From Jannaschia sp. S6380 (GTDB lineage: Bacteria; Pseudomonadota; Alphaproteobacteria; Rhodobacterales; Rhodobacteraceae), in NCBI RefSeq assembly GCF_023015695.1, contig NZ_JALKAS010000001.1, forward strand, positions 248,001 to 312,000: DNA of 64,000 bases, in the 5' to 3' direction. A program made the translations under genes and the position numbers. Below, piece by piece: positions 22,780 through 32,259 of the stretch (position 1 is its first letter; the number at the start of each line of letters is the position of its first letter). The notes under the pieces are model-generated. The model had not been told where the DNA came from. It made no database searches and saw only the letters and a program-made list of their open reading frames with translations.

Positions 22780-23100
22780 TCAGATCAGGACCCCGCCGCC
22801 GAAGGAGAAGAAGGAGAGAAAGAAGCTCGACGCCGCGAAGGCGATGGAAAGGCCGAAGACGATCTGTACGAGGCGCCGCGCGCCGCCGGAGCTGTCGCCG
22901 AAAGCGAGCGTCAGGCCGGTGATGATGATGATCATGACCGCGACGATCTTGGCGACCGGGCCCTCGATCGATTCCAGGATCGCCTGCAGCGGCGCTTCCC
23001 AGGGCATGCTCGAGCCCGCGGCGTGCGCGGGCGAGGACATCAACGCAACGGTCAGGGCGGCAGATGCTGCGGCAAGATGATGGTTCAGTAAGCGGATCAT
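22780..23100 (-). CDS. trbC: TrbC, VirB2-like pilin
   Basis: A 106-aa prepilin with a signal peptide (cleavage near AHA-AGS) and two hydrophobic segments (about 49-67 and 79-98) that remain in the mature pilin. The start at 23100 overlaps the trbB stop by 4 bases (ATGA). RP4 TrbC is processed by TraF; a TraF-type peptidase is encoded at 37178-37684. Confidence 0.9.
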   Translation of the reverse strand: MIRLLNHHLAAASAALTVALMSSPAHAAGSSMPWEAPLQAILESIEGPVAKIVAVMIIIITGLTLAFGDSSGGARRLVQIVFGLSIAFAASSFFLSFFSFGGGVLI

Positions 23101-24080
23101 GACGGATCTCCGAGAGGGGCAGGGACGAGGGGCGCGAGGGCATAGTCGCCGGTGGCCGTGAGACCGGTGACGGACGCGAGCTCGACGAGACGCCGCCTGC
23201 CGCCACGACCTTCGAGCATCGCGATGACGTCGATCGTCTCGGCGATCAGCGCCCGGGAGACCGTGACGACCGCCTCCTGGATGAGCTGTTCGAGGCGGCG
23301 CAGCGCACCAAGCGCGGAGCCCGCATGGATCGTGCCGATGCCGCCGGGATGTCCGGTGCCCCAGGCCTTCAGCAGATCGAGGGCCTCGGGACCGCGGACC
23401 TCGCCGATCGGGATTCGGTCGGGGCGCAGGCGCAGCGACGACCGCACCAGATCGGAGAGCGAACAGACGCCGTCCTTGGTGCGCAGGCTGACGAGGTTGG
23501 GCGCTGCGCATTGCAGCTCGCGCGTGTCCTCGATCAACACGACGCGGTCGGCGGTCTTGGCGACTTCGGCGAGCAAAGCATTGGTCAGGGTCGTCTTGCC
23601 GGTCGAGGTGCCGCCGGCGACGAGGATGTTCTTGCGGGACGCGACCGCCAGCCGGAGCGCCTCGGCCTGCTCGCTCGCCATGATGCCGGACCCGACGTAG
23701 TCCTCCAGCCGGAACACCGCCACGGCGGGCTTGCGGATCGCGAAGCTCGGTGCCGAGACCACGGGCGGTAGCAGGCCCTCGAAGCGCTCGCCGGTCTCCG
23801 GCAGCTCCGCTGACACCCGTGGCGCTCTCGCATGGACCTCGACGCCGACATGGTGCGCGACGAGGCGGACGATGCGCTCGCCATCCGCCGCCGACAGCGT
23901 GTCGTTCGTCGGCGACAGGCCCGATCCGAGCCGGTCGACCCAAAGCATTCCATCCGGGTTGAGCATCACCTCGACGGTCTCGGGATCGTCGAGGAAGGCG
24001 GCGACGGCGGGTCCGAGGGCCGTGCGCAGCATGCGCGCGCCCCGGCTCGCCGCCTCGGTTCGAAAAGGATGGATGCCCAT
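23097..24080 (-). CDS. trbB: TrbB, VirB11-like T4SS ATPase
   Basis: A 327-aa hexameric secretion ATPase and first gene of the operon. Walker A is GGTSTGKTT (about 156-164), Asp box LIEDTRELQ, Walker B region [14 protein letters not shown] and His box [13 protein letters not shown]. It works with TrbE and TraG at the base of the channel. No convincing sigma-70 promoter is visible immediately upstream. Confidence 0.94.
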
Positions 24081-24638
24081 GCGCGTCCCCGGAGATCAGA
24101 CCGGTCGCGTCCTGCGTCCGGCGTTCGGGGTCGAGTAGAAGGGGCACGAAATGCGCCGGATCAACAGGAGGATGGCGGGGGTAGGGCTCTGGCGTGGAAC
24201 GGCAGGGAAACGGCGGAGTTGGAGGCTTCAGTCACATGGGTTGCTGTACCGTGCGGTAGACTGGATCGCTTCTTACGTGCCCGAATTGGGCCGAAAGCGG
24301 ACATGCATGACCGGCTGCACCAAATCAGAGAGCGGACACCGCGAATGAAAACGGTGCGCAATGGAACAGTCCTGTGCAATTCCAACGGTCGCTTTCGGCG
24401 GAATGCAACGCATTTCTCATTTCTGACATATCGGTTGCAATTCGAGTTTCATGCCACAACGCCGATCTATGCTCCTATCGACCGATAAATCCGCATTTAC
24501 GAGACGATTGAGGCGCCGTATGATCTAGCGTATAATGTAAAGAAGTATGAATGACGTCGAAATATACGCTATTATATAACATTTTAGCACACGAACCGAT
24601 AAATTCCTTGAAGACATTGCTCGTTAACAACGGTGAGC
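24081..24638. other. 558-bp intergenic region between trbB and the restriction gene
   Basis: No credible gene. The trbB-proximal half (to about 24,240) is G+C-rich like the backbone. The distal half becomes AT-rich, especially 24,480-24,600, marking the left edge of the lower-GC island. A 5-bp-arm palindrome TACCG-TG-CGGTA lies at 24,247-24,258. The region must hold the trb promoter (leftward) and the end of the restriction gene transcript, but no clear -10/-35 pair or terminator is visible. Confidence 0.5.
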
Positions 24639-25823
24639 TCATCGTGCCTCTAGGGGATAGTTGATACGAAGCCACGCTAGAACAGCAGCGCGATTACCGT
24701 AGCCATGATTTTTGAGCAGCGCCACTATGTCGGCAGCCGCTATCACGACGATTGGATGTCGGTCCTCTTTGATTTCCTGATATGCCTGTCGGTCCACATA
24801 GCTAGTCGTAACCAAGATGCCGAACTGCCGGTGCCTTAGCCGCGAGATCAGTCTGGACATCGGGCGGACGCCCACGCTGCTGTTTGGCGCGTGGCATTTT
24901 GCTTCCAGCGCGAAGTCCACTAGGATTGCTGAAGGACCAGTGCCAATCCGCAGTTGTCCTATTGCGTCACGACCGCCGTCGCGTGAGGGCCTAGTCACAT
25001 CGATGCTAGCAATATCGGGCATCATCAGTCTTGCCAGTCCGGCGGCGCAGTATTCGAAGTCGTATGGGTTATTCTGAAAATACTGGTGGAGACATTCGAT
25101 CACATTGCGGCCTTCCGGGCTCGTCGGTAGCTGTTCATCCTTCGTTCTGTATTCAAGCGACCGGGTTGCCTGCAGCGGGCGGAAACTACCGCGATCCACC
25201 CAGTCCCGCCAGACCTGCGGAGCATTCGCGGAGTGGGCGTTGCCATTGATGATGTCGGTGACCCAGGCCCTGCTGATGACAGGTGCATCCAAAACAGTGA
25301 GCCGTGCCCGATAGTTCTGGAATCGCGCGCCCTCGGCGGTCTTCCAGACCGCCACCAAGTCCTCCGATGAAGTCAGGCTGGCCACGCCGGGAACAGCGAG
25401 GCCAACGAAACGGAAATCACGCCACTCGCCGGTGCTGGTGAAGATAAATATGGGAGGGACCTTCCGACGCTCCTCTGGACCGGCATGCGCCTGATCGAAG
25501 ATCTGACGCAGGAGCTCGTTTCCGTTTCGCGGTGTCTCGTGGAGCGGACGTCCAGGCCGCTTATTATCACCGTAGTAGGTGAATACGCCGGTCTCCTGGT
25601 CGAGCAGGTCTGGCCAGTCCGGGTCCTTTAGCGACGAGGTCAGAGCGACCATTTCCAACGACTTGAGGCTACCACGATACCTAAAACCACCGCTGTTGCT
25701 AACATTGATCAGGCGCGGCAGAGGTTCGTCGCCGGCATTCCCCAGCCGGCCGCTCTGGTAGATCGCATCGACATGGAGGTCGACCTGCTCCAGTTCGGAA
25801 AAGGAGATGATCTCATCAACCAC
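24639..25823 (-). CDS. restriction endonuclease, Mrr-like catalytic domain with AspBHI-type N terminus
   Basis: A 394-aa nuclease. The C-terminal third (about 245-394) is an Mrr-like PD-(D/E)xK domain: DGGRD (Asp at 282) and EAKC (Glu307, Lys309), followed by GILVTTSYV and a final helix with ADIVALL. The N-terminal two thirds resemble the SRA-like domain of AspBHI, a modification-dependent enzyme recognising 5-methylcytosine; this match is from memory. It is divergent from an operon with a C5-cytosine methyltransferase. It could be the cognate type II enzyme or a methyl-dependent nuclease for foreign modified DNA. Base composition is clearly more AT-rich than the flanking trb genes. Confidence 0.72.
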   Translation of the reverse strand: MVDEIISFSELEQVDLHVDAIYQSGRLGNAGDEPLPRLINVSNSGGFRYRGSLKSLEMVALTSSLKDPDWPDLLDQETGVFTYYGDNKRPGRPLHETPRNGNELLRQIFDQAHAGPEERRKVPPIFIFTSTGEWRDFRFVGLAVPGVASLTSSEDLVAVWKTAEGARFQNYRARLTVLDAPVISRAWVTDIINGNAHSANAPQVWRDWVDRGSFRPLQATRSLEYRTKDEQLPTSPEGRNVIECLHQYFQNNPYDFEYCAAGLARLMMPDIASIDVTRPSRDGGRDAIGQLRIGTGPSAILVDFALEAKCHAPNSSVGVRPMSRLISRLRHRQFGILVTTSYVDRQAYQEIKEDRHPIVVIAAADIVALLKNHGYGNRAAVLAWLRINYPLEAR

Positions 25824-25922
25824 GTCTTAAATTCCTAGTTTTCAAGAGTTTCCTCTCGATCGTCGGTTGGTGCTCGAAGCTGGTCCCCGCGCCACAGCTA
25901 TGCACAAAATTGCGTATCTCTG

Positions 25923-25967
25923 TTGAGTTCTGCACATGCTGTCTTATAGTACGGTACAAACGGAGGT
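25923..25967 (+). promoter_or_regulatory. promoter and ribosome site of the methyltransferase operon
   Basis: TTGAGT (25923-25928) and TATAGT (25945-25950), 16 bp apart, form a good sigma-70 promoter. GTACGGTAC (25949-25957), a symmetric element on the -10/start-site junction, is a candidate operator. GGAGGT (25962-25967) sits 8 bases before the ATG at 25976. The restriction gene starts on the other strand at 25823, so the 150-bp gap is a divergent control region. Confidence 0.6.
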
Positions 25968-25975
25968 AAGCGCAA

Positions 25976-26161
25976 ATGGGCAGCCCAGTACGAATTCAGG
26001 TACTCATGCCGAAGGAGGAAGCGGACCGTTTCGGAGCTTATTGCCGTGAGAAGGGGTTTAAGAAATCACCGCTGATTGTGCGGCTCATCCGCGAACACAT
26101 GGATCAGACTGATTACCGGACCCAACGCAGCCTGTTTGATGATAGTGGTAAGAGACGTTGA
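25976..26161 (+). CDS. small ribbon-helix-helix-like protein, possible R-M controller
   Basis: A 61-aa protein. VRIQVLMPKEEADRF reads as the beta strand and first helix of an RHH (CopG/Arc) domain and FKKSPLIVRLIREHM as the second helix. The tail is polar (RSLFDDSGKRR). It has a near-perfect ribosome site. Its stop overlaps the TTG start of the methyltransferase gene. Small DNA-binding proteins in this position often time expression of methylase and nuclease; that role is inference. Confidence 0.6.
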   Translation: MGSPVRIQVLMPKEEADRFGAYCREKGFKKSPLIVRLIREHMDQTDYRTQRSLFDDSGKRR

Positions 26162-27669
26162 CGGAGTTGGCGGACTCAGCAATTGAGCAGAAGCTGGCAA
26201 GACTGGGCATGGGGGCGGCTCCTAGGGTGCTGGATCTTTTTTCCGGATGTGGTGGGCTGTCTTTAGGTTTTCACAAGGCTGGTTTTGAAATCACTGCAGC
26301 GGTCGAGAGCAATCCGGTCGCAGCTGCCTCGCATGCACGGAATTTTCATGCAGGCGATAGTCGGCATGCTCAAGCGCTGGATATTACGCAAGTAAAACCG
26401 AGTCAGCTAGCATCCAGACTCGGTCTGGGCCGCGTCACAGACGCGGTTGATGTAATCATCGGCGGCCCCCCCTGCCAGGCATTTGCCCGGGTCGGTCGTT
26501 CGAAGCTACGGGAAATAGACGACGATCCGGAGGCCTTCCGTCACGATCCTCGCGCGAAACTGTTTGCCCCTTACCTCGACTATGTTCGCGCTTTCAGGCC
26601 GCTGGCCCTGCTGATGGAGAATGTCCCTGATGCTATGAACTTTGGGGGGAAAAACATTCCGCAAGAGGTTTGCGAGATTCTAATAAACCAGGGTTATATA
26701 TGTGCTTACACCCTGCTCAACGCCGCCTTCTATGGGGTGCCGCAGATGCGCGAGCGGATGTTCTTGATCGCCTTTCGCCGCGAGATAGCGAATGAAATCG
26801 CCTTCCCGGCGCCTGTGAGTTGGATTGACCTGCCAGCGGGCTATACTGGCTCCCGAAACGTCGCGCTGAAGTTGATCACAGCGAAACGCAGGACTGATGA
26901 AGTCTGCAATTATGTTGACCCACCTGAGGCAGATGGTCTGCTGCCGTCCGCCGTCACAGCTCATGACGCTATTGGGGATCTGCCGGAGATCCGTGCACTC
27001 GATCTGCTTGGTTGCGGTGTTCTTAAGCGAGGAGCGCGCCGCCTCGATGAGCTCTTGGCCTATGATCCAGGGCGTCCCGTATCAGCTTACGTGCGGGAGA
27101 TGAAGGAATGGTCAGGATTTGAGGCTGGGGCCGGGATTTCCGATCACGTCATTCGCTATCTGCCTCGGGACTATAAAATATTTGCTGGCATGAAGCCGGG
27201 CGATCAGTATCCGCAAGCTCGAGCCTACGCGCTTGCATTATTCGAGGATGGTGTCGCGGAGGCCAAACGGCGGGGGAGGAACATCAGGGCCGGCTCCGCC
27301 GAGTACGACGATCTTCGCCGAAAAACTGTTCCGCCATATGACCATACGAAGTTTCCCAACAAGTGGCGGAAAATGTGGCGAGACACACCGGCACGCACGA
27401 TCATGGCTCATCTGGGTAAGGACAGTTACAGCCATATACACTACGATAGTGATCAGGCGCGGACAATCTCGGTCCGTGAAGCAGCTAGGTTGCAATCCTT
27501 CCCGGACGGTTTCGTTTTTGAAGGTGCAATGAACCAAGCTTTCCAGCAGATCGGCAATGCTGTTCCGCCACTGATGGCCTTTGCCTTGGCGAAAGTAATG
27601 AAGAATACACTCAGCGACGCGCGAAGCGTTCGCCGCGCAAACGAGCTCGTGCTCGGCGCGACCGGTTGA
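26158..27669 (+). CDS. dcm: DNA (cytosine-5) methyltransferase
   Basis: A 503-aa C5-cytosine methyltransferase. Motif I is DLFSGCGGLSLGF (about 26-38), motif IV GGPPCQAFARVG with nucleophile Cys106, motif VI ENV (154-156), motif VIII QMRERMFL (196-203), and motifs IX-X are REAARLQSFP and QIGNAVPP near the C terminus. The target recognition domain is about residues 240-440 and its sequence specificity cannot be read. The TTG start at 26158 overlaps the previous stop; an ATG at 26209 (MGAAPRVLDLF) is the alternative. It methylates host DNA against the neighbouring nuclease. Confidence 0.92.
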   Translation: MTELADSAIEQKLARLGMGAAPRVLDLFSGCGGLSLGFHKAGFEITAAVESNPVAAASHARNFHAGDSRHAQALDITQVKPSQLASRLGLGRVTDAVDVIIGGPPCQAFARVGRSKLREIDDDPEAFRHDPRAKLFAPYLDYVRAFRPLALLMENVPDAMNFGGKNIPQEVCEILINQGYICAYTLLNAAFYGVPQMRERMFLIAFRREIANEIAFPAPVSWIDLPAGYTGSRNVALKLITAKRRTDEVCNYVDPPEADGLLPSAVTAHDAIGDLPEIRALDLLGCGVLKRGARRLDELLAYDPGRPVSAYVREMKEWSGFEAGAGISDHVIRYLPRDYKIFAGMKPGDQYPQARAYALALFEDGVAEAKRRGRNIRAGSAEYDDLRRKTVPPYDHTKFPNKWRKMWRDTPARTIMAHLGKDSYSHIHYDSDQARTISVREAARLQSFPDGFVFEGAMNQAFQQIGNAVPPLMAFALAKVMKNTLSDARSVRRANELVLGATG

Positions 27670-27676
27670 GGTGCGA

Positions 27677-28231
27677 ATGACAGATGTGCACACGCCAGAG
27701 CGGCGACGGCATAACATGCAAAGCGTGCGAGGACGGGACACCAAGCCCGAAATGCTGATTCGGAGCGGCCTGCATGCCAGAGGCCTGCGATATCGGCTGC
27801 ATCATAGAGGCCTGCCTGGGAAACCGGATCTAGTCTTCCCGAAACACCGAGCATTGATCTTGGTCCACGGATGCTTCTGGCATGGTCATGCCTGTCCGTT
27901 ATTCAAGTGGCCGAAGACCCGACAGGAATTTTGGCATGAGAAAATTGAAGGTAATCGAACTCGAGATCGGCGCACGATTGAAGCGCTGCATCAAGCCGGC
28001 TGGCGAATTCTTATAGTCTGGGAATGCTCGATGCGTGGCCCAAAGCGGCTTGTGTTACAGGACCTTCTGAATGAGGCCGAACATTTCGTTGCGCAGAGTG
28101 AGCGGACGTTTCGATCTCTTGCAGGAAGTGAAGCTACAGGGGGAAGTAGCGAGAAAAGCTCTCGGTTCTCAATTAATGCTAGACCAGAAAGTATCTGTAG
28201 CGAGAAAGTGAGAAAAAATGGGACGAACTGA
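27677..28231 (+). CDS. vsr: very short patch repair (Vsr) endonuclease
   Basis: A 184-aa Vsr nuclease that nicks T:G mismatches left by deamination of 5-methylcytosine. Family hallmarks are DVHTPERRRHNM, the GRDTKPE segment, GKPDLVF with the catalytic Asp, and the FWHGHACP zinc/His motif. The last 50 residues beyond the core are low-complexity. ATG at 27677 with GAGGTG before it is chosen over GTG at 27671. It follows dcm by 7 bases and overlaps the next gene by 14 bases. Confidence 0.9.
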   Translation: MTDVHTPERRRHNMQSVRGRDTKPEMLIRSGLHARGLRYRLHHRGLPGKPDLVFPKHRALILVHGCFWHGHACPLFKWPKTRQEFWHEKIEGNRTRDRRTIEALHQAGWRILIVWECSMRGPKRLVLQDLLNEAEHFVAQSERTFRSLAGSEATGGSSEKSSRFSINARPESICSEKVRKNGTN

Positions 28232-30323
28232 GACAGCTCCGTTCCGGCCACGCGCACGGTTACTTCAGTTGCTTGGCGATGAGCTAATCGGCACGCCGCG
28301 CTTGGCTGTTTTTGAACTTGTAAAGAATGCCTATGACGCTGACGCTTCGAGCGTTTCTGTAAGTATGAGATTGGACGCCTCACCAGCTCGAATCACGATA
28401 CAGGACGATGGGACGGGCATGACTTTGGAGACGATCCGCGACATTTGGCTGGTCCCCGGAAACGGTCACCGCGGGGAACAGCGGAGAAATCTTCACCGAT
28501 CGGAGCGCTACAATCGGCTCCCCCTTGGGGAGAAGGGTATTGGTAGGTTCGCGGCGCATAAACTCGGAGAGCGGATTGAATTGGTGACGCGCGCGAAAGA
28601 CGCTCTCGAATGCCGGGTCGTTATCGATTGGACCAGACTGATTCGAAAGAAATATCTCGAAGATGCTTCAGTCAAGATTGCAGAAAGGGAACCGAAGGTC
28701 TTCACAGAAAACGAGACAGGGACCCGAATCAGGATTACCGGCCTGCGTACAACGTGGCAGCGCGGTGAGATTCGTAGGCTATACAACCAGATGCTTTCGA
28801 TGACATCGCCCTTTGAAGGAGCTGGCGAGTTTCAGGCGGAGCTTGAGGTGCCTGGCTACGAAAACTGGATCGAAGATCTCTATGGACCAGATGATGTTAT
28901 CGATGTCGCACCGTGGAAGTTCATGTTCGACGTTGATCAGCTTGGCCGCGTCATTTGGAGTTATTCGTTCCGAGGCATCCCAGGAATCAAAGTTTCGCCG
29001 AGATGGACTCGATCGCGAAAGCGCATGCCCATTCCTCTGCGTGGAGGAAATGAGAAATCGCGCAAGACTGCGAATGCCGACTTTATGAAAGGTATTGGGC
29101 CTGTACACGGCGTAATTTATGCATATGATCGCGATGCAAAAATAATTTCTCAGATGTCGAACGCTAAGTCGTTTACTGATTATCTCGACGACAATGGTGG
29201 CGTTAGGGTCTATCGTGATGGAGTAAGAGTTTATAATTACGGAGAAGCTGGAGACGATTGGCTTGGTCTTGATCTGCGGCGCGTCAACGCGCCTCAACGT
29301 AAGCTCAGTCGAAACATATTAATCGGTTCGGTTTCGCTCGACCTTCAACATTCGGGCGGTCTAATTGAAAAGACTAATCGAGAAGGATTCGTAGAGAACG
29401 ACCGGACAGAGCGCCTTCGAGAAGTGGCATTAGGTGCAATTCAGATACTCGAGATTGAACGCTTCAAGGACAAGGAACTACTGCGCGAACGCACAAGCGC
29501 GAAGCCGGTGCAAGGACGGCCCGGTGTCGTCGGAACGATCGAAGCGTTGCGGGACCGTCTACGCGATGGCGGCGTACTGAAAACCTATGGCCCATACGTT
29601 GATAGCATAGAACACGAATATGAGACCATGCAGGAAGCTCTGCTTCAGGCTGGCATGGCCGGCGTGAACCTTGCCCTTATTTTCCACGAGGTGGAACGCG
29701 GAGTACGCTCCCTCGAAGCTCAGCTCGGTGGCGCAGATTCATCCGGCCCGTTTGGCGGGCAGGTACAAGAACTCGTGCACCTACTGCAGGGGTTTTCTGC
29801 ACTTCTCAGGCAGGACAAGCGAGTTAAGCATGCGGCGAAGGATTTAATTGATAATGCTCGTTTGCGCAACGCTAGCCGCTTTCATGCTCACGGCATCCAG
29901 TTAGAATGTCCCTCCATGAATTTCACCGACCCGGGCTTCCACGCTACTTTCCAATTCGGATTAGTGATGGGTGCGCTCAATAATCTGATCGATAACGCGA
30001 TCTACTGGCTTGACCTTAAGGCAGAGACCGAAGGTGCGGATTTTGTTTCGAGACTCTATATTGATTTCACGTACGATTTGCCTCAGGGCCCCGCGATCGT
30101 AGTGGCAGACAATGGTCCGGGATTTGGAGCAGATACGCCTCAGGATGTTGTCCGTCCATTCTTTTCTCGCAGGCCGGATGGGATCGGGCTTGGCCTGTAT
30201 TTTTCTCGCATGGCAATGGAAAGTATGAATGGGGAATTGGTTTTTCCGGACCCCGGTCAAGTTGATCTTCCTCCAGGCTATGATGGGGCCGTAGTTGCGA
30301 TAGTCTTCAGGAAAGCGTCATGA
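28218..30323 (+). CDS. double-GHKL ATPase: MORC/HSP90-like N terminus plus histidine-kinase-like C terminus
   Basis: A 701-aa protein with two nucleotide-binding GHKL modules. The first (about 15-200) has the N box ELVKNAYDA (33-41), G1 DDGTGM (63-68) and G2 GEKGIGRFAAHKLG (104-117), as in MutL/MORC/HSP90-type ATPases. A linker (200-460) resembles an S5-like transducer. The second (about 475-700) has FHEVERGVRSL with candidate phospho-acceptor His490, N box NNLIDNAIYW (about 588-597), G1 DNGPGFG (631-637) and G2 GIGLGLYFSRMA (655-666), as in sensor kinases. GHKL ATPases occur in R-M and conflict operons (prokaryotic MORC/paraMORC families). Its stop overlaps the next start. It probably remodels or senses DNA in the restriction response; the kinase function is inference. 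Confidence 0.8.
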   Translation: MGRTETAPFRPRARLLQLLGDELIGTPRLAVFELVKNAYDADASSVSVSMRLDASPARITIQDDGTGMTLETIRDIWLVPGNGHRGEQRRNLHRSERYNRLPLGEKGIGRFAAHKLGERIELVTRAKDALECRVVIDWTRLIRKKYLEDASVKIAEREPKVFTENETGTRIRITGLRTTWQRGEIRRLYNQMLSMTSPFEGAGEFQAELEVPGYENWIEDLYGPDDVIDVAPWKFMFDVDQLGRVIWSYSFRGIPGIKVSPRWTRSRKRMPIPLRGGNEKSRKTANADFMKGIGPVHGVIYAYDRDAKIISQMSNAKSFTDYLDDNGGVRVYRDGVRVYNYGEAGDDWLGLDLRRVNAPQRKLSRNILIGSVSLDLQHSGGLIEKTNREGFVENDRTERLREVALGAIQILEIERFKDKELLRERTSAKPVQGRPGVVGTIEALRDRLRDGGVLKTYGPYVDSIEHEYETMQEALLQAGMAGVNLALIFHEVERGVRSLEAQLGGADSSGPFGGQVQELVHLLQGFSALLRQDKRVKHAAKDLIDNARLRNASRFHAHGIQLECPSMNFTDPGFHATFQFGLVMGALNNLIDNAIYWLDLKAETEGADFVSRLYIDFTYDLPQGPAIVVADNGPGFGADTPQDVVRPFFSRRPDGIGLGLYFSRMAMESMNGELVFPDPGQVDLPPGYDGAVVAIVFRKAS

Positions 30324-31591
30324 GACTTCCGCAGCCCCGTGTGCTCGCAATCGACAATGAAGATGATCATCTCCAACCGCTCGTGAGAGCATTGACCCGG
30401 TATGGTGCCGCTTGCAGACCGATTCTGTTCGATGGCAACATTGCTTCCATGGCCCCAGCGCCCTTGGCGCGGGTCATTTTTACAGACTTGCATCTGGACA
30501 GCGCGGCTACCTCCACTCAGTCCGGTAACCATTTTTCGATGATCCAGGCAATACTCGACCAGCTCGCGCCCGACGGCCCGTACCTTCTCGTCCTATGGAC
30601 ACGATTTGAGGATGACGCCCCAGGGTTAGCGACATACCTGCGGGATCGGATGCAGCAAGGCCGCCCCCCGTTTGCGATCCTCCCGCTTGACAAGACTACG
30701 CACATGCCGTCTCCCAATCAGTTCGGGCCCTTAGATGAAATCGTAAATGCCATCGATGCACTGTTTGACAATAATCCCCAGATCGCAGCCCTTCTTGAGT
30801 GGGAAGACCGCGTCAACGCGGCCTCTGCTGGAACGATCATAGGCGTTCTGAAAGCAGCCAAGTCGGAGGATGCTCCTGATCTCGGCAGGGTTCTCCACGA
30901 TCTTGCTGAGGGTATTGCAGGTAAGGATAAAGCAGCAGGGCGGATTGGGCACTACGTGGCCGAGGCGCTGCTTCCGGTTCTTTTTGATCACCTACTCCGC
31001 GGCGATGACGCAGATGAGAAATTGTGGACAGCTGCAGTAAATGGGGCCAGAGATAGGAACAGTAGCGAGGATGCTGCGGCACACGCACATCTGAATGCGT
31101 TCAGCCATATCGATATGCAGCCATGCGAATGTTCCGCGCGCGGCGCGGTAATTTCACTTCCGGATCTCGTCCGGGAGCGTTTTTCTGATCATTTTGGGGA
31201 TTTCGACGAGGCGACATTGGCTGCACAGTTTGGCGTGAAACCGGAGGAGGCTCCACTTGAAGAATGGCTACTTGTCCAGGTCCGCCCGGCCTGCGATGAG
31301 GCGCAGCCAAGACCAGGCCCGCTCCCCTATCTTCTCGCTCGAGAGTTTACATCTAATAGCCGGGCCAACTCGTTCGGCGGACTTTGGCGCTCTCCAGGAT
31401 ACATCCGGCAAGGAGCAGACGGGATCCGTGCTCTCGCCGTCAGTCCGAGGTTTGGGCTTAGTCTGCCTCCGGATCGGCTAAGCGGGGCAGTGGCTCGGTT
31501 TCGGCTACGCAACGAATTAGTTTTCGATCTCATTCACGCGGCAGGAAGCCATGTATCTCGCCCGGGTATCATTTCATATGGGAAGCGCTGA
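30320..31591 (+). CDS. receiver-like domain protein coupled to the GHKL kinase
   Basis: A 423-aa protein. Residues 6-130 look like a divergent response-regulator receiver: acidic cluster IDNEDD (Asp12, Glu14, Asp15), VIFTDLHL with candidate phospho-acceptor Asp56, Thr94 in VLWTRFEDD and Lys125 in LPLDKTTH. It resembles the receiver family noted in conflict systems (Response_reg_2 type, from memory). The remainder (130-423) is alpha-rich, with no HTH or nuclease motif I can recognise, and is the likely output domain. Its ATG overlaps the GHKL stop (ATGA at 30320-30323), so the two are made together. It probably receives phosphate from His490 of its partner. Confidence 0.68.
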   Translation: MRLPQPRVLAIDNEDDHLQPLVRALTRYGAACRPILFDGNIASMAPAPLARVIFTDLHLDSAATSTQSGNHFSMIQAILDQLAPDGPYLLVLWTRFEDDAPGLATYLRDRMQQGRPPFAILPLDKTTHMPSPNQFGPLDEIVNAIDALFDNNPQIAALLEWEDRVNAASAGTIIGVLKAAKSEDAPDLGRVLHDLAEGIAGKDKAAGRIGHYVAEALLPVLFDHLLRGDDADEKLWTAAVNGARDRNSSEDAAAHAHLNAFSHIDMQPCECSARGAVISLPDLVRERFSDHFGDFDEATLAAQFGVKPEEAPLEEWLLVQVRPACDEAQPRPGPLPYLLAREFTSNSRANSFGGLWRSPGYIRQGADGIRALAVSPRFGLSLPPDRLSGAVARFRLRNELVFDLIHAAGSHVSRPGIISYGKR

Positions 31592-31830
31592 AGACAACGC
31601 AGTTCAATTGCCTGGGTCAGAAATGTCAGTTCTACTTTTGGCCCGGTGATGGATTTGACCCAGTGCGTTGCAGGAGGGAGCGCTTGTTTGATCCATACTT
31701 TTCGTTTGAGCCGGCAATTTTTGTGAACCCCGTCACCGCGAGTCTGCATCAATGATGGCTATCAGAATGAGTAATTGCGCATGCGTCTGTCGAGATCAGA
31801 CTGGCCGAATGTCTGCTTTTCAATGGAACA
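31592..31830. other. intergenic right edge of the defence island
   Basis: No gene seen. An inverted repeat, CTGGGTCA (31612-31619) and TGACCCAG (31656-31663), lies 21 bases after the receiver gene stop. Without a T-run it is at best a weak terminator for the convergent ends of the defence operon and copG. Composition returns to backbone values at about 31,830. Confidence 0.4.
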
Positions 31831-32259
31831 TCATCTAATTGCCTCATCCGATCGTGCGTCCAGCTCCTCCGCGACCTCATGCCGGTACACCGACCCTTTC
31901 GCCAGCCGCCGTCCAAGGGCTTCGACGAAGGCATCGTAGCGCTCGCCGCCCTTGGCCTGTGCGGCCTGCCGCTGCGGCTCCGGCAGGCTCGGCATCACGG
32001 TCAACCAATGGCGGACGAAGAGGGCGAGCGTCTCGAGGGCAATGGTCTGGTCGCGTTCCAGCCGGTCCTGGGTGCGGTTCAGCCGGTCGAGCCGTGCTGA
32101 GAGGGCCGCCTCGAGCCGTTCGCTCGCATCTGGCGTGACGAACGACGCGATGGCGGCTTCCGCGACAAGAGAGAGGGACCGGTCGCGCCGTTCGGCGTAG
32201 GCCGTCAGCGCGTCCAGGATGGCGGGCTCGAGATAGACGGAGAGGCGGGCCTTGCGCAT
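31831..32259 (-). CDS. CopG-family ribbon-helix-helix protein (TraD-like position)
   Basis: A 142-aa protein with an N-terminal RHH domain (ARLSVYLEPAILDALTAYA, then RSLSLVAEAAIASF, residues 3-42) and a helical, Arg-rich C-terminal region with a possible coiled coil (RLEAALSARLDRLNRTQDRL). It follows traG by 11 bases and is conserved in this position in trb/tra elements. It probably binds oriT or the transfer promoters. Confidence 0.82.
   Translation of the reverse strand: MRKARLSVYLEPAILDALTAYAERRDRSLSLVAEAAIASFVTPDASERLEAALSARLDRLNRTQDRLERDQTIALETLALFVRHWLTVMPSLPEPQRQAAQAKGGERYDAFVEALGRRLAKGSVYRHEVAEELDARSDEAIR

Follow-up and report, generated by a model that had tools for sequence, protein, structure and literature searches.

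A low-GC island inside a conjugation operon

The window, by which we mean the whole 64,000-nucleotide stretch of Jannaschia sp. S6380 DNA analyzed here (positions 248,001-312,000 of contig NZ_JALKAS010000001.1), holds a 7750-bp cargo (24081..31830) between the trbB and copG genes of a conjugation operon. The cargo is delimited by GC contrast, gap size, and an empty site: in one same-genus genome, the trbB-copG site is empty and measures 144 bp. The left border is trbB (23097..24080, minus strand; PF00437, 4.5e-35) and the right border is a copG-like gene (31831..32259, minus strand), assigned from a weak RHH_1 match (0.056) and same-genus homologs. A first-pass annotation had described the genes as lying at lower GC within a conjugative element, and this holds: GC is 0.55 over 24639-31591 vs. 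0.69 in the left flank and 0.68 in the right; third-position GC is 0.51-0.66 for island genes vs. 0.81-0.86 for trbB, copG, and traG; and conjugation genes (T2SSE/TrbB, T4SS-DNA_transf/TraG, S26 peptidase, SLT, DUF3363) lie on the flanks. Within the conjugation operon of the Trb-type element, the copG-trbB gap takes up cargo repeatedly, being either empty or filled by differing cassettes (window 24081-31830; L163, G000:C1:711500-721000; L166 in G004; L164 and L165 in G018; L167 in G011); at this site, another element of the same genome has a C5-methylase together with an NgoMIV-type endonuclease and a CARF_STK_AAA protein. The position of the island as cargo between copG and trbB, within the conjugation operon, is new here.

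The island has one minus-strand gene (24639-25823) followed by five tightly packed plus-strand genes, with overlaps of 4 nt (RHH/methylase), 14 nt (Vsr/GHKL), and 4 nt (GHKL/receiver). All six genes are present and placed as first annotated; the receiver is identified by its predicted model. The divergent spacer (25824..25975) contains a sigma-70-like TTGAGT-16-TATAGT element, seen by eye; an operator-like inverted repeat was dropped as a candidate, since none of at least 8 nt was found in this region. The first plus-strand ORF (25976..26161; 61 aa) has the sequence pattern of an RHH-like small protein, but Pfam gives no RHH match for it, and an RHH assignment by Pfam was dropped; the label survives on the pattern. 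Next come a C5-cytosine methyltransferase (26158..27669, plus strand, TTG start; PF00145, 9.2e-58; dcm, 1.9e-51) and a Vsr mismatch endonuclease (27671..28231, plus strand, GTG start; PF03852, 1.3e-30; TIGR00632, 7.1e-47), a member of a family that repairs deaminated 5-methylcytosine (5mC). No cognate methylation-blocked type II endonuclease is found beside the methylase; the endonucleases recognized in the island are Vsr and the AspBHI-family enzyme only, and a nuclease of a family without a known model may still be present.

Could the minus-strand nuclease (24639..25823, GTG start) be the missing partner of the methylase? Its matches in Pfam (RE_AspBHI_N, 1.1e-66; Mrr_cat, 2e-12), PADLOC, and PDB (4oc8) place it in the AspBHI/MspJI family, with an SRA-like domain that contains a 5mC pocket and an Mrr_cat domain. 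Most pocket residues are retained: W70, D72, Y83, Y84, G85, D86, and K88 correspond to AspBHI W69, D71, Y82, Y83, G84, D85, and R87. AspBHI N63 is replaced by Ser64, as MspJI has Ser90 at that place, and the loop reads S42-N43-S44 instead of S41-R42-Q43; given these differences, the site context may differ from that of AspBHI. Because the pocket is largely kept, the nuclease is predicted to cut 5mC-containing DNA, and a role as the cognate partner of the operon's methylase is rejected because its family is modification-dependent.

A predicted kinase and its receiver

The fourth plus-strand gene (28218..30323) encodes a protein in which Pfam, profile comparison, and a predicted model find a paraMORC-type ATPase joined to a histidine-kinase core. 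Pfam finds HATPase_c_3 at residues 29-169 (3.6e-18) and HATPase_c at 586-679 (1.1e-14). Across 21 sequences, ATP-site residues N37, D63, G65, G67, N589, N593, G655, and G657 are invariant and D631 is retained in 20; both ATP sites look intact. His490 (codon 29685-29687), singled out in the first-pass annotation together with Asp56 of the receiver, is His in 21/21 relatives, two of which (L070, L072) carry Gln in place of the following Glu491; of 18 sequences in a second set, 17 have His in this column, and the remaining one (L099) has an SHD motif that is shifted in the alignment. A profile built from the 21 proteins matches complete histidine-kinase cores (ZraS at 457-692, 9.6e-34; HK853-type entries from residue 475) and thus covers the phosphotransfer helices, not the ATPase alone. 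The predicted model has a mean pLDDT of 79.6, falling to about 48-61 for residues 471-530; this low-confidence stretch contains the helix with His490 (479-504) and a second helix (512-530). Searched by fold, the whole model comes closest to the MORC3 ATPase (E 1.4e-10), at a TM on the query of only 0.29; TRAP1/Hsp90 and MORC2 entries and one histidine kinase are within the top 50. Both the low pLDDT at the kinase helices and the TM of 0.29 count against reading the pair as a relay.

The fifth gene (30320..31591, plus strand) encodes a 423-aa protein that models and alignments divide into a receiver (1-150), a helical linker, and an output domain (about 266-423). A Pfam scan gives no match up to E 10, and a receiver profile searched against PDB scores 0.14 at best; the predicted model opens with a (beta/alpha)5 receiver that matches solved receivers in a fold search. 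Among the putative phosphorylation-site residues, Asp12, Asp56 (codon 30485-30487), and Lys125 are conserved in 14/14 receivers, with Thr or Ser at position 94 in 14/14; Asn13, where the acidic pair usually has Asp, counts against the relay. The protein lacks a DNA-binding family, and its output domain a nuclease family, as judged by Pfam. Cys325-Asp326 in the output domain is invariant, and the model tentatively suggests a MazF-like fold; both observations are new here. Homology to MazF by sequence is rejected (PF02452, MazF/PemK: no Pfam match, hhalign 0.1%), which leaves the structural hint; a single weak PemK-like match in a viral library ranks 35th (E 0.15), and three matches of the output-domain profile to PDB sequences (E 0.36-0.59) are taken as chance.

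The pair has a precedent. Bellieny-Rabelo, Pretorius, and Moleleki (2021; PMC8011034) described HEF_HK (PF19191) and Response_reg_2 (PF19192), a two-component-like pair with a link to restriction-modification (R-M), in which HATPase_c_3 plus HATPase_c is the commonest HEF_HK architecture (174/222) and the neighbors in common with the window pair are a C5-methylase, Vsr, and type II R-M. The window pair shares the N-terminal HATPase_c_3, the conserved His-Glu/Asp (H490-E491) in a helix before the C-terminal HATPase_c, and an adjacent receiver gene with a strand-1 acidic residue, a strand-3 Asp, Thr/Ser, and Lys. It differs in the size of the receiver protein (423 vs. 600 aa for the published query), and the receiver regions are related at the profile level only (hhalign 97.5%). 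PF19191 does not match the window GHKL protein up to E 10 and scores 0.013, below cut-off, with one relative (L003); PF19192 matches neither the window receiver up to E 10 nor 14 close relatives up to E 1. Judged from these comparisons, the window pair is related to the published one but divergent from it. A separate GHKL/Response_reg_2 cluster with a C5-methylase, an HNH protein, and Vsr is present in another species of the genus (L037:882-7756, in G013); its receiver matches PF19192 (2.8e-16), pointing to two relay branches within one genus.

Iyer et al. (2008; PMC2292703) described paraMORCs encoded in R-M operons alongside cytosine methylases and VSR endonucleases; relative to what is described there, the window protein shares the MORC-like N-terminal GHKL fold and the cytosine methylase and Vsr neighbors but carries a histidine-kinase core in the same chain and has a receiver partner, in an island without a helicase. 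Because PMC8011034 and PMC2292703 describe it, the central idea of the first-pass annotation is already in print, and its suggestion of an undescribed defense type is not supported: a double-GHKL/receiver pair with a C5-methylase and Vsr is in PMC8011034. The concept of the relay is known and the window variant is new. A search of the open-licence literature found no experimental test of the pair.

Neighborhoods and co-evolution of the pair

Which of its neighbors does the pair keep? Besides the window, 21 non-viral loci were compared (L003, L035, L036/L074, L037, L053-L056, L061-L073). A receiver-like gene adjoins the GHKL gene in 17; six of these calls come from phmmer with the window protein, one from PF19192, and the rest from inspection (position, D-D or E-D start). 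The other four are L003 (none), L071 (contig end), and L066 and L073 (ambiguous). L071, cut by the contig end, is counted among the 21 and left out of alignment set A5. L004-L015 (12 of 13 loci in one search), L038, and L039 were excluded, only the N-terminal GHKL part being matched; L013, L014, and L039 also have a methylase alongside. A GHKL search without a strict E cut-off reaches 49/60 genomes, mostly through ordinary kinases or single GHKL proteins, and only three double-GHKL loci besides that of the window were taken from it.

A C5-methylase lies within the fetched stretch in 15/21 non-viral loci; in its place, an N4/N6-type methylase is present in L035 and a PAPS-reductase-like gene in L065. 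The latter (L065:6477-7277; PAPS-reductase domain, 4.4e-12), possibly DndC-like, is just upstream of the double-GHKL/receiver pair. In 10/15 other genomes, which have 0-4 methylase matches each, a C5-methylase lies no more than about 3 kb from the GHKL gene; our arithmetic puts the chance expectation at about 0.1 of 15 genomes (15 of 16 GHKL-carrying genomes were used; G389 was left out). The clustering of the methylase with the GHKL gene is beyond chance.

Viral contigs (IMG/VR) extend this picture. The best 80 of 97 relatives were kept and, with L081, L091, and L128 dropped as duplicates, give 77 unique loci. Within this best-80 set, the close tier (L076-L091, 14 unique) has an adjacent receiver in 14/14, a C5-methylase within five genes in 13/14, Vsr in 4/14, and an AspBHI-like gene in 0/14, and the far tier (63 unique) has a receiver by phmmer in 20, a C5-methylase in 24, Vsr in 9, and an AspBHI-like gene in 0, with four loci lacking a downstream gene. 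A C5-methylase is missing from 39 far loci. An upstream ORF of 200 aa or longer is present in 28 of them, and these ORFs match N6_Mtase (13), Eco57I (13), and N6_N4_Mtase (7), models whose matches may overlap. What recurs, then, is the pair next to one type of DNA methylase or another. In L099, L100, L109, L111-L119, L136, and similar far loci, a GHKL relative follows a likely N6-adenine methylase and has one or two shorter genes after it; these loci may represent an adenine-methylase counterpart of the module.

Among unlabeled neighbor ORFs of 13 close viral loci (54 of 55 scanned; one 1323-aa ORF left out), the PADLOC nuclease-type models REase_II, HNH, PD_DExK, and NucC find one member each, and one ORF is a further methylase; PHROGs matches, among the first 25 of 104 families, are integrases, terminases, portal, and tail proteins. 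The close viral relatives thus sit with a C5-methylase and mostly without a recognized restriction enzyme, an observation new here; a restriction enzyme of an unmodeled family is possible at these loci. Named phage records contain relay proteins in 1 and 2 of 50,697 cases, so that phage carriage rests on the IMG/VR contigs.

Three other arrangements occur. In a subgroup (L069:11309-12292, L094:9718-10716), a receiver of about 230 aa is followed by what looks, by eye, like a metallo-beta-lactamase-fold hydrolase. In a Thaumarchaeota MAG (L003:8337-12166), a full-length double-GHKL relative has a HerA-type ATPase (DUF87, 6.1e-26) upstream and no receiver gene beside it. On an Agrobacterium plasmid (L054:8971-20096), the relay pair, an AbiE pair, Vsr, a methylase, and MZA-type genes adjoin one another, which looks as though a single methylase served two accessory modules.

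Co-evolution was assessed on 20 loci (the window, L053-L056, L061, L062, and 13 close viral loci; L078 dropped as a duplicate). The matrix of pairwise identities for the GHKL proteins correlates with that for the receivers at r=0.91 (190 pairs), and at r=0.90 on the 18 methylase-bearing loci, a value that 0/2000 permutations reach. By contrast, the methylase correlates weakly with the GHKL protein (r=0.18, 153 pairs; 2.6% of permutations as high) and with the receiver (r=0.24, 153 pairs; 0.5% as high). Kinase and receiver thus evolve as one unit while the methylase is largely exchanged, a pattern new here; it is compatible with a relay that does not, on its own, recognize any single fixed methylated sequence. 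Since the methylase correlations exceed most permutations, some shared history remains, which counts against the relay reading.

The AspBHI-like nuclease is a different matter: it is absent from the other relay loci (0/21 non-viral, 0/77 unique viral), and the relay pair is absent from six neighborhoods of the nuclease's own relatives. Its gene fits hitchhiking at the cargo site. In relatives, a 47-50% identical methylase and an AspBHI-like nuclease sit with MZA defense genes. The homolog neighborhoods, proposed earlier as a check, therefore bear out co-occurrence for the methylase and not for the nuclease, and the six-gene set does not hold together as one unit. The proposal that phosphotransfer gates the nuclease divides likewise: the phosphotransfer chemistry is intact in silico, with its His, Asp, Thr/Ser, and Lys kept and a complete kinase core, but the nuclease as its target is not supported, being a predicted 5mC-dependent enzyme encoded on the opposite strand.

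A proposed methylase-associated relay and its alternatives

What, then, might the island do? We consider it somewhat probable that it encodes a phosphorelay that is associated with a methylase and switches an effector domain, in a mobile island with a stand-alone predicted 5mC nuclease. This reading starts from gene content, model folds, catalytic columns, methylase linkage, pair co-evolution, and the frequent absence of a recognized restriction enzyme; from there, we infer the cue, phosphotransfer itself, and the action of the output domain, and context suggests a role of the relay operon in defense. The island would be mobile cargo of a Trb-type conjugative element, holding the nuclease and a separate relay operon; other defense-like cassettes at the same recurrent site count for the relay reading. 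The MORC-like ATPase module would sense a DNA or infection cue; its ATP-driven closing around DNA, or its not encountering the host state, would alter the kinase core; the second GHKL domain would phosphorylate His490, and the phosphate would move to Asp56 of the receiver. The phosphorylated receiver would free or rearrange its C-terminal output domain, which would act as an effector, not a transcription factor, and harm the invader or stall the cell. The methylase may mark self or be a guarded bait, an idea prompted by the co-evolution of the pair while the methylase is largely exchanged, and Vsr may repair the methylase's mutagenic by-product.

Detocs is a soluble kinase-receiver relay used for phage defense, composed of a TPR-type sensor kinase, a second receiver protein, and a nucleotide-cleaving effector. 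The window relay would work alike if the preferred reading is right, but sensor and effector domains differ, a Pfam scan of the two relay proteins finds no Detocs-type domains, and the pair is not a member. VcSduA, a GHKL-plus-nuclease defense protein for which a 2025 paper (PMC12137116) reports tests, shows that GHKL ATPases can serve defense.

A bolder form of the preferred reading, which we hold unlikely as it stands, makes the methylase, paraMORC-histidine kinase, and receiver a complete phage-defense module without a restriction enzyme: the exchangeable methylase would be bait or self-mark, the ATPase would read methylase loss or foreign DNA, and phosphotransfer would release a receiver-fused MazF-like toxin domain, replacing restriction with kinase-gated growth arrest. 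Alternatively, the pair could be the restriction half of an ATP-dependent R-M machine, with the GHKL protein as a DNA-loaded clamp, the output domain as the nuclease, and phosphorylation as a safety catch. The match of the N-terminal GHKL to the BbrUII/HgiDII restriction-enzyme model (2.4e-23, below the model cut-off) and the close viral loci with a methylase and mostly no recognized restriction enzyme speak for such a machine, which we nevertheless find quite improbable, as no nuclease family is found in the output domain and the low pair-methylase correlation is unlike that expected of a site-specific R-M pair.

The first-pass reading, in which the R-M genes, the AspBHI-like nuclease among them, are expressed or active under the control of the relay, draws on co-location, operon packing, and similar speculation in PMC8011034; the location of the nuclease on the other strand, its absence from other relay loci, and the lack of a DNA-binding family in the receiver protein make it decidedly doubtful. 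It is very unlikely that the GHKL protein is a MutL-like repair partner of Vsr at deaminated 5mC sites: Vsr adjoins the GHKL gene in the window and the N-terminal GHKL matches MutL models weakly (2.1e-6), but the MutL equivalog score (26.9 bits) is far under the cut-off of 180, for which this role is rejected, Vsr is infrequent at close viral loci, and the receiver would be left unexplained. That all the genes are unrelated and merely collected at a site that takes varied cargo, as the AspBHI-like gene may have been, is scarcely credible, and hitchhiking is unlikely for the methylase plus pair, which are linked repeatedly across genomes, plasmids, and viral contigs, a linkage also found independently in PMC8011034.

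Catalogs of R-M-linked GHKL ATPases date from 2008, and the relay-like pair has been on record since 2021. A relay that is catalytically complete in silico, a swappable methylase, and often no recognized nuclease narrow the question to a three-gene unit. Should this unit prove defensive, it would amount to an immune system that is gated by a kinase, linked to DNA methylation, and built on a bacterial relative of eukaryotic MORC ATPases.
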